A stretch of 64,000 nucleotides of DNA, from contig JASCOH010000008.1 of the NCBI GenBank assembly GCA_029959295.1, forward strand, positions 186,001 to 250,000, in the 5' to 3' direction. This document shows positions 613-28,526 of this stretch, in pieces. The stretch's first letter is position 1. Every line of letters begins with the position of its first letter. The translations under genes were made by a program, and so were the position numbers. A model generated the notes under the pieces. The model made no database searches. It was not told the DNA's origin and was given only the letters and a program-made list of their open reading frames with translations. This DNA comes from Flavobacteriaceae bacterium PS02334 (GTDB lineage Bacteria > Bacteroidota > Bacteroidia > Flavobacteriales > Flavobacteriaceae).

Positions 613-1608
613 ATGGTCAAGATTGGCAACATAGAATTACCTGATTTCCCTTTACTTTTAGCTCCGATGGAAGACGTCAGCGATCCGCCTTTTCGCAGGT
701 TGTGCAAACTTCACGGCGCCGATATGATGTATAGTGAATTTATTTCTTCGGAAGGTTTGATTCGTGATGCCATGAAAAGCCGCCAGAAACTAGACATTTT
801 TGATTACGAAAGACCAGTCGGAATCCAGATTTTTGGAGGCGATGAAGAAGCGATGGCGCTGTCTGCAAAAATTGTGGAAACGGTTCGTCCTGATTTGGTC
901 GATATCAATTACGGCTGTCCGGTTAAAAAAGTGGTCTGCAAAGGAGCAGGAGCGGGTGTTTTAAAAGATGTGGATTTGATGGTTCGCTTGACGAAAGCTG
1001 TGATTAAAAGCACGCATCTTCCGGTGACGGTGAAAACAAGATTAGGTTGGGACGAAGATTCTATAAATATCGATGAAGTTGCAGAAAGATTGCAAGATAT
1101 CGGAGTGCAAGCTTTGACGGTTCACGCTAGAACGCGAGCGCAGATGTACAAAGGCCATTCTGACTGGACACACATCGAGAGAGTAAAAAATAATCCGAGA
1201 ATTACGATGCCGATTTTTGGAAACGGAGATATTGATTCGCCAGAAAAAGCATTGGAATATAAAAACCGCTTTGGCCTTGACGGAATGATGATTGGTCGTG
1301 CGGCAATCGGCTATCCATGGATTTTTAACGAAATCAAGCATTTTTTCAAAACCGGAGAAAAATTAGCACCGCCAACAATGGAAGACCGAGTAGAAGCCGT
1401 GAGAAATCACCTGACTTGGTCAATGGAATGGAAAGGCGAGCGCGTGGGAATCGTGGAAATGAGAAGGCATTATACCAATTATTTCAAGGGAATTCCAGGT
1501 TTTAAAGAATACAAACAAAGATTGGTCACTACAGATGCGCCGGAAGAACTTTACCAGACTTTGAATGAAATTCAAGAAGTTTTTGGGAGTTTTCAGTTTG
1601 TGCAGTAG
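613..1608 (+). CDS. dusB: tRNA-dihydrouridine synthase
   Basis: FMN-dependent enzyme that reduces uridine to dihydrouridine in the tRNA D-loop. The 331-residue protein has the usual TIM barrel opening LLLAPMEDVSDPPFRRL, the active-site segment INYGCPVKK with the catalytic Cys102, and the KTRLGW and GRAAIGYPWIF segments that bind FMN and close the barrel. A longer reading frame begins at TTG 592, but that codon overlaps a promoter box, so ATG 613 is preferred. Length and motifs are ordinary for the DusB subfamily. It is transcribed away from the NlpC/P60 gene. Confidence 0.93.
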   Translation: MVKIGNIELPDFPLLLAPMEDVSDPPFRRLCKLHGADMMYSEFISSEGLIRDAMKSRQKLDIFDYERPVGIQIFGGDEEAMALSAKIVETVRPDLVDINYGCPVKKVVCKGAGAGVLKDVDLMVRLTKAVIKSTHLPVTVKTRLGWDEDSINIDEVAERLQDIGVQALTVHARTRAQMYKGHSDWTHIERVKNNPRITMPIFGNGDIDSPEKALEYKNRFGLDGMMIGRAAIGYPWIFNEIKHFFKTGEKLAPPTMEDRVEAVRNHLTWSMEWKGERVGIVEMRRHYTNYFKGIPGFKEYKQRLVTTDAPEELYQTLNEIQEVFGSFQFVQ

Positions 1609-1679
1609 TAGATTAATAAGTTACTTTGCTTAATTGTGATATAAAAGCTAATTATTATGAATCAAAATTAACTATGCTA

Positions 1680-2327
1680 ATGAACATTTCGAGTCGAACA
1701 ACATACCTGTTGCCTATTATTTTACTTCTAATACCATGTTACTATATCAGTTTCATTTCATTTGAAGATGTTGTATTTTCCTTTATTTCATCGAATATCA
1801 ATATGTATTTTATTTTTCCTATAGTGTTATCGGTAATATTGTTCTTCTTTTTTAAACTGCTTGTAAAAAGTAGTTTTTTGAAGTATTTAAAATATACAAT
1901 ATTGTTCATACCGCTTGTATTGACAAAAATTCTAATTTACTTCACACAGAGTTATTATGATTTAGGAGCTATTTTTGCGATTATTATCGGAGGTATTCTC
2001 TATCTATCTTTCAATGAATTTTTATATCGATATACTGCGGTTTTGAATGACGAAGCTTTGGTTTTTAAAAATATTTTGGGATTTTCTAAAGTGGTAAAAT
2101 TGGCAGATATTATTAAACTAGAGCAAAAAATTAACTTGCTAGGAGTGTTTAGAGAGCTTAGATTTTTAAATCTATCAAAAAAAACTATAGTTCTCTATCG
2201 AGAAGATTACGATGAATATCAGATTAAATTTTTTACATCTATTGGGGAAGGAGATCAAATTTTTTCAAAGATTATTTCAAACGCTAATAAAATTGGAAAC
2301 CAAAAAATTAAAATGTATAGTTACTAA
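1680..2327 (+). CDS. uncharacterised membrane protein with possible PH-like C-terminal domain
   Basis: Not recognised as a named family. The first 130 residues hold about four hydrophobic segments rich in Ile, Phe and Leu. The last 90 or so residues are polar with alternating beta-like stretches (ALVFKNILGFSKVVKLADI, then KTIVLYREDYDEYQIKFF). That layout resembles small bacterial proteins with membrane helices and a cytoplasmic PH-like domain, which is an inference only. ATG 1674 is an equally possible start two codons upstream; a TTG at 1626 is less likely. The gene is more A+T rich than dusB and stands alone. Confidence 0.6.
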   Translation: MNISSRTTYLLPIILLLIPCYYISFISFEDVVFSFISSNINMYFIFPIVLSVILFFFFKLLVKSSFLKYLKYTILFIPLVLTKILIYFTQSYYDLGAIFAIIIGGILYLSFNEFLYRYTAVLNDEALVFKNILGFSKVVKLADIIKLEQKINLLGVFRELRFLNLSKKTIVLYREDYDEYQIKFFTSIGEGDQIFSKIISNANKIGNQKIKMYSY

Positions 2328-2455
2328 GCAATCAGGGGCTAACTTCTGATTAAGAATGCTAAATAAAATGTAGTTTTAATGTGTTTTGTTTGCTACATGC
2401 TGCTTATAAAACGAACATAACTTTTAAAGGTGGGAATTTTTAATTTAAAATACTT

Positions 2456-3880
2456 TTAAACCTGAATCGTCTTCCATTTTCCCTTCTTGAACAAAATATA
2501 TCCAGCAATGGTAATCGCAGTTTCTGCAATCGGAATTGCCATGAAAACCCCGGTCGGACCCATTTTCAAGACCTTCGCCAAAATATAAGCCATCGGAATC
2601 TGGAACAGCCAAAATCCGAAGAAATTAATCCAAGTCGGGGTCCAAGTATCGCCGGCGCCGTTAAAAGTATTGATCAAAACCATACCGATTCCGTAGAAAA
2701 TATAGCCAAGACTCATGATTCGAATCGCTTCTACGGCAATGTTCTGTACCAAAGCGTCATTCGTGAAAAATGCAGCGATATATTCAGCGCCAAGTAATGT
2801 AATTACCATAATCGTTGCCATAAAAATAACATTGTATTTTGCAGTTTGCATCACTGATTTTACAGCTCTGTCTACTTGTTTTGCACCTAAATTTTGTCCA
2901 ACTAAAGTCGCTGCAGCGTTGCTCAAACCCCAAGCTGGCAAGATGAAAAACATCATGATTCGCAAAGCAGTTTGGTATCCAGCAGAACCATGATCGCCGC
3001 CAGTCACGGCAACCAAATTTGCCAAGAAAATCCAACTGCAGGAAGCAATCACGAATTGCAAAATTCCTGGAGCGGCAACTTTTACAATTGCCTTAATCTG
3101 TTTCCAATCTGGAATAAAATAGCTTCCGATGATTTTTAAAACGCCTCTTCCGTTGAATAAATGATAGGCTTGATATAAAACACCAATGGTTCTTCCAGTG
3201 GTCGTGGCCATTGCAGCGCCAGTCAGTCCGAAAGCAGGAATTGGTCCGAGTCCGTTAATTAAAATCGGACATAGAATTATATTGCAGATATTGGCAATCC
3301 ACAAACTTTTCATTGCAATTGCGGCGTTTCCGGCACCACGGAAAATTCCGTTGATCAAGAATAGCAATACGATAGAACTGCTTCCTGCCATCATGATCTG
3401 CATAAAAGTAGTTCCATGTAAAGCGGCTTCCGGTGAAGCGCCCATCAGCATTAAAATATCTGTTGCATAAATAAACCCGAAGCAACTGATCACAGCATTT
3501 ACGGCAAGAGAAATGATTACGGCCTGCATTCCTGCTTTTGCCGCTTTCGTAGGATCTTTTTCTCCGATTCTTCGAGCCACAACTGCTGTTGCAGCCATGC
3601 TCAATCCAATTGCTAGAGAATAAATAATGGTTAAAACAGATTCTGTAAGGCCAACGGTTTGAATCGCAAAACTGCTATTCTCCAAATGGCCTACAAAATA
3701 TAAATCTACCAAGGCAAAAACCGATTCCATCATCATCTCCAAAACCATTGGAATTGCCAATAGAATAACGGCTTTTCGAATGTTTCCTGATGTATAATCG
3801 AAATCTGCTTCTCCGCGAAGGGATTGCTTGGTTACGGTAATAATTCTAGATATAAAACTGGGTTTGTTTGTCTTTGTCAT
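2456..3880 (-). CDS. MATE family multidrug/toxin efflux transporter
   Basis: Inner-membrane exporter of the MatE family, which couples Na+ or H+ influx to extrusion of organic cations and drugs. The 474-residue protein has about twelve membrane helices in two related halves; the segment IPMVLEMMMESVFALVDLYF is the typical first-helix MATE signature, with matching motifs such as NAAATLVGQNLGA in the second half. A longer frame opens at 3919, but its extra 13 residues look like upstream sequence, so ATG 3880 (MTKTNKPSF) is chosen. Substrate cannot be deduced. No partner gene is adjacent. Confidence 0.9.
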   Translation of the reverse strand: MTKTNKPSFISRIITVTKQSLRGEADFDYTSGNIRKAVILLAIPMVLEMMMESVFALVDLYFVGHLENSSFAIQTVGLTESVLTIIYSLAIGLSMAATAVVARRIGEKDPTKAAKAGMQAVIISLAVNAVISCFGFIYATDILMLMGASPEAALHGTTFMQIMMAGSSSIVLLFLINGIFRGAGNAAIAMKSLWIANICNIILCPILINGLGPIPAFGLTGAAMATTTGRTIGVLYQAYHLFNGRGVLKIIGSYFIPDWKQIKAIVKVAAPGILQFVIASCSWIFLANLVAVTGGDHGSAGYQTALRIMMFFILPAWGLSNAAATLVGQNLGAKQVDRAVKSVMQTAKYNVIFMATIMVITLLGAEYIAAFFTNDALVQNIAVEAIRIMSLGYIFYGIGMVLINTFNGAGDTWTPTWINFFGFWLFQIPMAYILAKVLKMGPTGVFMAIPIAETAITIAGYILFKKGKWKTIQV

Positions 3881-25027: not shown

Positions 25028-28000
25028 ATGAAATACAATCCTAACGAGATAGAGAGAAACTGGCAAAAATATTGGGCCGAAAACCAAACCTTTGCTGCAG
25101 AAAATAATTCAGACAAACCAAAATATTATGTTTTGGATATGTTTCCTTATCCATCCGGAGCCGGCTTGCACGTTGGGCATCCGCTAGGTTACATTGCTTC
25201 TGATATTTATGCACGATTCAAACGCCACCAAGGTTTCAACGTTTTGCATCCGCAAGGCTACGACAGTTTCGGACTTCCGGCGGAACAATATGCCATTCAA
25301 ACGGGTCAGCATCCTGATAAAACTACGAAGGAAAACATCGCCCGTTACAGAGAACAACTAGACAAAATCGGTTTTTCTTTTGATTGGAGTAGAGAAGTGC
25401 GAACTTCAAACGCTGATTATTACAAATGGACACAGTGGATTTTCATTCAGTTGTTCAATTCTTGGTATGATAAAGATGCCGACCAAGCCAGAGATATCAA
25501 GACATTGGTGATGGATTTTGAAGAAAACGGAAACGCTAAAGTAAACGCAGTTTCCGACGATAATATTCCAACATTCTCTGCCGAAGACTGGAAATCCTAT
25601 TCAAAAGAAGAACAAGAAAGAATTTTACTAAAATATAGATTGACTTTCCTAGCCGAAACCGAAGTAAACTGGTGCCCGGCATTGGGAACGGTTTTAGCAA
25701 ACGACGAAATCATAAACGGCGTTTCAGAACGTGGAGGACATCCCGTAATCCGCAAGAAAATGACGCAGTGGAGCATGCGAATTTCCGCTTATGCAGAACG
25801 TCTTTTGACTGGTTTGGACACGATTGATTGGACAGAATCTCTAAAAGAAAGCCAAAGAAACTGGATCGGGAAATCAGTAGGAGCTTCGGTTACTTTTAAA
25901 GTAAAAGATTCTGAATTCGAACGAAACGCTGTCGATTATATCTTAAGCGGAGACGAAACCAACGAGCACGTTATTGAAGTCTTCACAACAAGACCTGATA
26001 CGATTTTCGGAGTAACATTTATGACTTTGGCGCCAGAACACGATTTGGTTTCAAAAATCACAACACCTGAACAAAAACAAGCCGTAGAAGCTTACGTAGA
26101 AGCAACTGCAAAACGTAGCGAACGCGAAAGAATGGCCGATGTAAAAACCATTTCGGGCGTTTTCACAGGCGCTTATGCCGAACATCCTTTTACAAAAGAA
26201 GCAATTCCGGTTTGGATTGGCGATTATGTTTTGGCTGGTTATGGAACTGGAGCCGTGATGGCTGTTCCGTGTGGTGACGAACGCGATTATGCTTTCGCAA
26301 AACATTTCAATATCGAGATTAAAAATATATTTGAAAACGTAGATATTTCGGAAGAAGCTTACGGTTCAAAAGACAATGTGGTGCTTGACAATTCTGATTT
26401 CTTAAACGGATTGAATTACAAGGAAGCCACCAAAAAAGCCATCGAAGCTTTAGAAGAATTAAACCAAGGAAAAGGAAAAACCAATTACCGTTTGCGTGAC
26501 GCCGTTTTCTCCCGCCAAAGATATTGGGGCGAGCCTTTCCCAGTGTATTATGTAAACGGATTGCCACAGATGATCGAAACACAGCATCTGCCAATTCGCC
26601 TTCCGGAAGTAGAGAAATATTTGCCAACCGAAGACGGACAACCGCCTTTAGGAAACGCAACGGATTGGGCTTGGGATTCTATCAACAACAAAATTGTCTC
26701 CAATGAGCTTGTCACCCCGAGCGCAGTCGAGGGGCAATCTTCTAACGGAATTTATTCTTTAGAATTAAACACCATGCCAGGTTGGGCAGGAAGTTCTTGG
26801 TATTGGTTGCGTTATATGGACGCTCATAATAATGACGAATTTGTTTCGGGCGAAGCACAAAACTATTGGCAGAATGTCGATTTATATATAGGAGGAAGCG
26901 AACACGCCACAGGCCACTTGTTATATTCTCGTTTTTGGAATAAATTTTTGAAAGACAGAGGTTTTGTAAATCAAGAAGAACCGTTCAAGAAATTGATTAA
27001 TCAGGGGATGATTTTGGGGATGAGTGCTTTGGTTTATAGATTAGATGTAAATTTTAATATTCAATTTACAATTAGTAAAGAATCAGAAACTATTGGCAAA
27101 AATTATAACCGTGGATTTGTAAATAAAGCTGAGCAAGATGGTAGTTTTGGTAGTAAATATTTTTTCTCTAAAGAACTGATGATTAAAGTGAAGTCTAAAG
27201 AGATAAATATTAAAGATGAAATCATTAGAAATATTAAGTCTACTTTAGAAGAAATAACACCAAAGTATCCTTCCGAAAATTTTGAAGCATTAAATTTATT
27301 CGATAGAGAAATTGCTATAACTGAATTTTCTTTTAATCCAATTCACATTGATGTAAGTCTTGTAAATTCTTCTGACGAAATTGATGTAGAAAAATTAAGA
27401 CAATGGCAACCTCAATTTAATGATGCCGAATTTATTTCTGAAAATGGTAAATTTTATGTTGGTAGAGAAGTTGAAAAAATGTCTAAACGTTGGTATAATG
27501 TTGTTAATCCAGACGACATCTGCGAAGAATACGGAGCCGACACCTTACGTTTATACGAAATGTTCTTAGGTCCGTTAGAGCAGGCAAAACCTTGGAATAC
27601 CGCTGGAATCACAGGGGTTTTCGGATTCTTGAAAAAACTATGGAGATTGTATTTTGACGAATCAGGTTTGATTGTAAACTCAAATCCTGCCACGCCAGAA
27701 GCCTTGAAAACATTGCACAAAACCATTAAAAAAGTTCAGGAAGACATCGAGAATTTCTCTTTCAATACGTCAGTGAGTTCTTTTATGATTGCCGTAAATG
27801 AATTGACCGCGCAAAATTGCCACGAACGTTCGATTTTAGAGCCGTTAGCCATTTTAATTTCTCCGTATGCGCCTCATATCGCTGAAGAATTGTGGGAAAA
27901 ATTAGGGCATACCGAAAGCATTTCAAGAGTGCCTTTCCCAAGATTCAATCCAGAATATTTGGTGGAAAGCAACAAAGAATATCCAGTTTCTTTCAACGGA

Positions 28001-28156: not shown

Positions 28157-28164
28157 TTTTCTTT

Positions 28165-28526
28165 CCACAGATTAAAAGAATTAAAAGGATTTCTATTGTA
28201 ATCCGTGAGAATCCTTTAATCTTTGGCAAAAGAAAGAAGCTGTCTGTCATCCCGAGCGCAGTCGAGGGAATACAAATACACATAGCCACAGATTAAAAGA
28301 ATTAAAAGGATTTATATTGTAATCCGTGAGAATCCTTTAATCTTTGGCAAAAGAAACAAGCTGTCTGTCATCCCGAGCGCAGTCGAGGGAAAACAAATAC
28401 ACATAGCCACAGATAAAAGAATTAAAAGGATTTCTATTGTAATCCGTGAAAATCCTTTAATCTGTGGCAAAACAAACAAGCTACTTGTCATCCCGAGCGC
28501 AGTCGAGGGAACGCAAAGAAACACAG
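28165..28526. repeat. Tandem array of three 121-bp units downstream of leuS
   Basis: Three near-identical units start at 28165, 28286 and 28407. Each has an imperfect palindrome opening CCACAGAT(T)AAAAG and closing AATCCTTTAATCTTTGG (AATCTGTGG in copy 3), followed by the core CCCGAGCGCAGTCGAGGG (28251, 28372, 28492). Any reading frames inside are products of the repeat. The gap 28157-28868 otherwise holds a hairpin, one terminator-like stem and nothing else evident. Confidence 0.9.

Follow-up and report, generated by a model that had tools for sequence, protein, structure and literature searches.

The leucine-specific domain (LSD) of leucyl-tRNA synthetase (LeuRS) lies, in the T. thermophilus and E. 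coli enzymes, between the catalytic fold and the KMSKS loop. According to the account in PMC5059758, the LSD of E. coli is mobile, acts as a buttress for the KMSKS loop and guides tRNA, and it matters for tRNA binding and for distinguishing tRNALeu isoacceptors; the same account describes this domain as not absolutely required and mentions LeuRS that have no LSD. Aminoacyl-tRNA synthetases are commonly regarded as housekeeping genes that change slowly, and the behavior of the LSD reported here is therefore surprising: species with 98% identical enzymes have completely different versions of a domain adjoining the LeuRS active site, and more distant species at times have it in common. The window analysed here, i.e., the whole stretch of 64,000 nucleotides, carries a leuS gene with a long LSD at the same site (Table 1).

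Table 1. Coordinates of leuS and of its parts, numbered from the first letter of the window
Feature	Position	Strand	Basis
leuS, leucyl-tRNA synthetase, 1042 aa	25028..28156	+	ORF; TIGR00396; Pfam editing and anticodon domains
Palindromic repeat in frame in leuS, adding about 8 residues (..TPSAVEGQ..), apart from the LSD	26709..26736	+	alignment
LSD segment between GMILG and EKMSK, 151 aa, residues 665-815	27020..27472	+	alignment to solved LeuRS and relatives
Hypervariable LSD core, approximately residues 672-770, the replaced or expanded part	27041..27337	+	BLASTP against cores of relatives
Conserved LSD tail (NPIHIDVSLVNSSDEID...VGREV) leading to KMSKS, low GC3	27338..27472	+	relatives; GC3
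KMSKS catalytic loop (KMSKR, residues 817-821)	27476..27490	+	alignment; K817, M818, S819 and K820 invariant across 78 LeuRS sequences

The leuS product and its leucine-specific domain

The leuS reading frame is unbroken, and its product matches TIGR00396 (leuS_bact) with 904.2 bits against a cut-off of 548.4, which identifies it as a bacterial LeuRS; the editing domain is recognised as PF13603 (E 8.7e-56). The phmmer alignment to T. thermophilus LeuRS (PDB structure: 1h3n) breaks at residue 665 of the query and 580 of the chain, and resumes at 807 and 628, respectively. The break falls exactly at a stretch of low G+C content, so this stretch is identified by alignment as the LSD preceding KMSKS, in agreement with the proposal of an earlier note on this DNA. 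The segment between the aligned blocks has 47 residues in T. thermophilus (581-627) and about 141 here (666-806). The earlier note had included the KMSKS loop in the insert, but this is an ordinary conserved loop, located at the 3' edge and outside the insert.

The low G+C content itself is real: it is 0.264 in 27061-27480, as compared to 0.417 in 26761-26940 and 0.433 in 27481-27540. The flanks within leuS are richer (0.416 before 27020 and 0.394 after 27505), and the values for the whole gene and for the window are 0.388 and 0.363. The lowest 140-codon block of leuS, at 0.255, is below all 2000 codon shuffles, in which the minimum for such a block averages 0.338 and never falls under 0.286. 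Equally low values occur in 163 of 12,716 sampled 420-nt windows, representing 7 places in the 64-kb window with the LSD stretch included, so the stretch is not unique there. In the first genus set, each of the 52 long LSDs has less G+C than the rest of its own gene (differences from 0.04 to 0.23, mean deficit 11 points), and 5 of these 52 are more extreme than the present one. Low G+C as a proof of import was accordingly ruled out, AT-richness being general to long LSDs. As for GC3, in the tail of this LSD it is 0.28 below the rest of the gene, with lower values in 4 of 143 long forms, and core GC3 is lower in 16 of 143; given the extreme tail GC3, recent import of this LSD is possible but unproven.

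An expanded or replaced domain, with some 80 added residues, had been suspected from the sequence of this gene, and the relatives bear this out, as they have at the same place either a short LSD or an unrelated long LSD. The LSD of L038, whose backbone is 91.3% identical, is of the short form with 71 residues, so that the net excess here is 80 residues (151 against 71). L002 and L003 (backbones 93.7% and 86.5% identical), which with L038 make up the three nearest relatives, have LSDs of 150 and 130 residues, with cores that lack similarity to the present core and give no BLASTP match to it; the core is 31-32% identical to that of L005, and has a weak BLASTP match of 44 residues to L006 (E 0.001). 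Comparison of L001 and L002 in 30-residue windows gives 97-100% identity at starts 586-631, only 21-52% at starts 661-796, and again 93-100% at starts 826-856. Sameness of length and composition in the nearest relatives had been named as the observation that would speak against a replaced domain; length differs, and composition is partly alike, in that all 52 long LSDs are AT-rich.

The model of the LSD alone, built with 39 of the 50 long named relatives, has a mean pLDDT of 76, with residues 688-695 below 50. It contains strands at residues 662-683, 698-713 and 757-774 (model numbering + 652) and helices at 715-722 and 728-746. The full-length model, for which 77 of the 80 named relatives were used, has a mean pLDDT of 75.8, with residues 684-707 below 50, and agrees with the LSD model in outline; the whole LeuRS model aligns to LeuRS chains in a structure search. 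The core is predicted to form the long strands of a three-stranded sheet and to add two helices, and from the alignment we infer that it extends a sheet already found in the short form. Foldseek comparison of the LSD model to solved structures produced 40 matches up to E 10, the best at 2.9 and none at E<=0.001. The motif [FYVIL][ILVFM]S is found in 115 of 138 long cores, whereas 200 shuffles give 76 on average and 93 at most, and this motif of the middle strand is probably kept in long cores; a looser strand pattern, present in 129 of 138 long cores, was set aside, as it had no control.

Length variation and core turnover among relatives

The genus set consisted of 150 genomes, this one included, and leuS was read from 139 loci after 11 of the genomes with fragmentary leuS matches were left out; the wider sample added 119 family genomes, 118 phylum genomes and 80 named loci. 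Of the 275 LeuRS read, 269 were full-length and 249 distinct, with 6 that were not full length and 20 duplicates; all 20 duplicates are identical in coding DNA and probably represent one genome entered twice. Sequences from genus-mates are identical to named Flavobacterium records, an example being L024 and L235 (F. muglaense), which makes the source of the window a Flavobacterium. The motif cut of the LSD failed in 13 of 275 sequences, and later lengths were taken from alignment columns.

The genus LSDs, cut by motif in 136 sequences, divide into 84 of less than 90 residues and 52 of at least 90. Among the 249 distinct LeuRS the distribution is bimodal, with 103 LSDs of 70-89 residues and 143 of 90-193 residues, proportions that are not frequency estimates, since the family and phylum loci kept were the best-matching ones and long forms similar to the query may be over-represented; the genus set is the fairer sample. 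The other three of the 249, phylum outgroups L200, L201 and L202, have an LSD of about 4 residues by alignment columns, and, judging from these sequences, parts of the phylum seem to lack the domain. Both forms occur in other families of the class, the LSD being at least 100 residues long in 5 of 16 LSD-bearing loci (L180, L183, L191, L192 and L199). On these comparisons, the low-G+C stretch is one instance of a family-wide hypervariable LSD module in Flavobacteriaceae.

Complete LeuRS in the genus span 937-1345 residues, and part of this spread is due to an insert at the CP1 site. IleRS and ValRS, used as controls for length only, vary far less. A single near-full match to IleRS, of 3396-3507 nt, was found in 96 of 101 genus genomes, and the other five either are split, three of these having additional sequence near residue 300, or lie at a contig end; for ValRS, the single near-full match in 99 of 101 genomes spans 2616-2691 nt, and the other two are partial, at contig ends.

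The long and short states were mapped on a FastTree phylogeny made from 848 backbone columns, with the three outgroups of about 4-residue LSD labelled short (106 'short' labels). The labels require 50 changes on this tree, against a mean of 80 (68-92) in 200 shuffles, and the state of the LSD is thus labile but not random. Cores were called unrelated when they had no BLASTP match, the recount at E<=1e-3 taking in five forms of 90-99 residues, and cores unrelated in this sense may share a fold or be old, fast-changed homologues. Pairs in which both LSDs are long have recognisably related cores in 0 of 25 cases at backbone identity of at least 0.96, 0 of 54 at 0.94 or more, 4 of 152 at 0.92 or more, and 15 of 415 at 0.90 or more; 38 of 143 long cores have no partner at all. 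At the highest similarity (backbone identity of at least 0.98), five pairs are both short, five mixed, and one both long and unrelated. L068 and L229 (F. ginsenosidimutans), for example, have 98.9% identical backbones and LSDs of 72 and 148 residues, and L218 and L229 have unrelated cores at 98.1% backbone identity. Among the cores that are related, many share only 30-50% of their residues at backbone identities of 73-90%.

In 228 pairs above 0.95, identity, scored with gaps as differences, lies at 0.06-0.69 over the five 25-residue windows covering 676-800; it is 0.88 in both windows at the edges of the LSD, and at least 0.78 elsewhere. Nine close pairs, picked by hand, have DNA identity of 90-100% in the last 10 codons before the LSD, 63-97% in the first 10 codons after it, and 77-97% in the next 10. 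The collections do not include many strains of any one Flavobacterium species and thus give no view of swapping within a species.

Synonymous differences were compared in ten pairs with related cores; in four of them the core has significantly fewer than the backbone (p<0.02, uncorrected), and in the other six it does not. The four pairs are L011/L016 (4/62 in the core vs 181/744 in the backbone), L024/L025 (5/66 vs 246/781), L009/L216 (11/64 vs 260/754) and L219/L220 (15/70 vs 264/737), and for all of them p<0.03 with A/T-ending codons alone. In the first three pairs, dS of the LSD tail is 0.50, 0.71 and 0.79, as compared to 0.14, 0.15 and 0.36 in the core, so the effect of low divergence is not common to the tail; residue by residue, the low-divergence tract of L011/L016 stops near the conserved HVDL. 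By this measure, in a few pairs the spread of the core between species is more recent than the divergence of the backbone, and the six pairs without a significantly younger core may have received it by vertical descent. In the eight of ten pairs where it could be computed, core dN/dS is 0.11-0.51, and backbone dN/dS is 0.05-0.11; values that are below 1 yet above the backbone indicate that cores are constrained, less tightly than the enzyme. These averaged values do not point to positive selection within a core family. The cores look like functional cassettes, some of them exchanged between species.

The source of the present core was sought in 397 family genomes, where it matched itself and six other sequences with E of 0.002-0.006 (per genome), which we read as chance matches. 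No donor or close relative of this core was found in these genomes, in phages, plasmids or viral contigs; the cassette comparison is therefore not applicable to it, and its own import is not demonstrated. Searches with the entire LSD returned one unannotated phage record, covering the last 54 residues of the query, and three plasmid records from Bacteroidales over the last 68-71 residues, two of them annotated as leuS, with no match among viral contigs. A linked partner gene was looked for in 60 of the 80 named loci, and ftsX and the zinc peptidase beside leuS give no sign of a difference between long and short forms: ftsX is present in 46 of 53 long-form loci and 5 of 7 short-form loci, and the zinc peptidase in 46 and 4, respectively.

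Other in-frame insertions in leuS

The palindromic repeat CCCGAGCGCAGTCGAGGG, translated within leuS as ..PSAVEG.., resembles the Rickettsia palindromic elements. Copies of the palindromic 18-mer are also found at 28251, 28372, 28492 and 40646, for a total of 5 in the window against 0 expected; directly 3' of leuS, at 28160-28520, there are three similar tandem repeats of about 120 bp, each with the palindromic 18-mer. The peptide encoded by this repeat is also present in L006, at the same site, and in L045, at the CP1 site, and a different one is found in L011.

At the CP1 site, between WIGKSxGA and FTTRPDT, an in-frame insert of more than 90 residues is present in 14 of 243 related leuS, including L127, L128, L121, L138, L134 and L132. 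One insert that was tested is DUF559 (PF04480, E 7.5e-31), and all 91 of 91 pairs among the 14 are similar; the six inserts inspected are flanked by repeat-like peptides, such as PHPQPLSKGEG and PLSSGEGLGVR. Matches to the CP1 insert occur in 20 of 61 genus genomes, and, among the matches listed, 17 of 30 are in open frames of 597-1386 residues, two of those 17 in leuS of G016. The DUF559-like insert looks like a mobile in-frame coding element.

In L063 (G096, a one-contig genome), leuS is broken within a short LSD into frames of 684 and 225 residues (992-3046 and 3178-3855), which reflects either a sequencing error or a LeuRS in two pieces. The LeuRS of Aquifex is naturally divided into two subunits.

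Explanations of core turnover and comparison with known systems

We favour diversifying selection as the driver of turnover, with neutral tolerance as its main rival, and consider it likely that the stretch is this strain's long allele of a hypervariable, exchangeable LSD module, the turnover of which is best explained by such selection. The conserved ends of the domain (SALVYR... and ...IHIDVSLVN...EKMSK) stay put and the core between them differs in whole, switching between a short form of about 18 residues and many unrelated long forms of about 40-140, with a turnover far faster than change in the rest of LeuRS. Block replacement suggests recombination through the conserved ends. The conserved frame and tail probably keep the reported job of the LSD, i.e., support of the KMSKS loop and tRNA entry, and the core is probably an outward decoration on which diversifying selection would act, most plausibly as escape from a LeuRS-binding phage protein or from an inhibitor made by a competitor. 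The more specific proposition that the LSD is an arms-race recognition surface, with LeuRS-directed antagonists (phage proteins or inter-bacterial effectors) driving domain replacement in Flavobacteriaceae, would liken it to surface proteins under immune or phage pressure; it is put forward tentatively and may well be wrong. No LeuRS antagonist was found or is known, and the selective agent is one that we infer.

Under neutral tolerance, the exposed and non-essential tip of the LSD would take almost any foldable insert, to be reshuffled by recombination and indels without selection. The lack of a strict requirement for the domain in E. coli and its absence from some LeuRS, as described in PMC5059758, agree with this, as do the in-frame palindromic peptides in other LeuRS loops, the richness of the core in residues with AT-rich codons (FYMINK residues make up 39% of the core and 30% of the backbone), and core dN/dS above that of the backbone. 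However, core dN/dS stays at 0.11-0.51, the lengths are bimodal rather than graded, windows outside the LSD, including other loops, retain identity of at least 0.78 against 0.06-0.69 in the LSD, and IleRS and ValRS have no length variation of LSD size; we regard neutral tolerance as possible, if somewhat unlikely. Functional tuning, whereby the cores of each species would be suited to its own tRNA binding, response to temperature or interaction with a partner, accords with the role of the E. coli domain in tRNA binding and isoacceptor discrimination noted in PMC5059758, but is improbable in our estimate, as wholly different tuning needs seem unlikely for backbones that are 98-99% identical and carry short or unrelated long cores.

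Still less credible is fast divergence in place, i.e., vertical descent of all cores from one long ancestor with repeated losses and without exchange. The long form may indeed be ancient, given the LSDs of at least 100 residues in other families of the class, and both the low identity of many related cores and the six of ten pairs in which the core is not younger than the backbone are compatible with vertical descent; yet core synonymous divergence is below that of the backbone in the other four pairs, and whole-core differences are seen at 98-99% backbone identity and 92-94% DNA identity outside the LSD. Finally, insertion into the LSD of a mobile coding element, be it intein-like, palindromic or a homing nuclease, is very improbable, for although leuS carries such elements at other sites (the palindromic repeat at 26709-26736 and the DUF559-like CP1 inserts in 14/243), a Pfam scan of 40 long LSDs, this one included, gave one borderline match (E 0.0045) and no intein or nuclease, and the profile of one other core family matched, in 150 genomes, leuS in two and one frame-broken stretch (E 0.002).

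Turnover driven by diversifying selection would mean that LeuRS is the target of some agent in these bacteria, for which each core could serve as bait. Neutral turnover would make the LSD of this essential enzyme a site of unusual tolerance to grafts, of use in protein engineering. In both cases, the LSD should be masked in Flavobacteriaceae leuS before tree building. No description of LSD variation of this kind was found in the titles and abstract openings of the literature searched, which mostly excluded subscription papers and is weak evidence of absence.

The domain shares its site with the LSDs of other bacterial LeuRS and differs from them in being swapped wholesale between close relatives. 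Flagellin FliC is an exposed surface filament, unlike LeuRS, which is a cytoplasmic, essential enzyme. The likeness to the outer domains of FliC, as presented in PMC12445082, is of pattern only: a conserved part is combined with a hypervariable part whose size differs between species. AgnB2, the plasmid-encoded immunity LeuRS against agrocin 84 that is described in PMC5059758, is likewise a LeuRS that differs at the LSD, in the context of an antagonist; in that account AgnB2 has a small loop instead of the LSD, whereas here it is the chromosomal enzyme that varies, by its core, with no inhibitor known.
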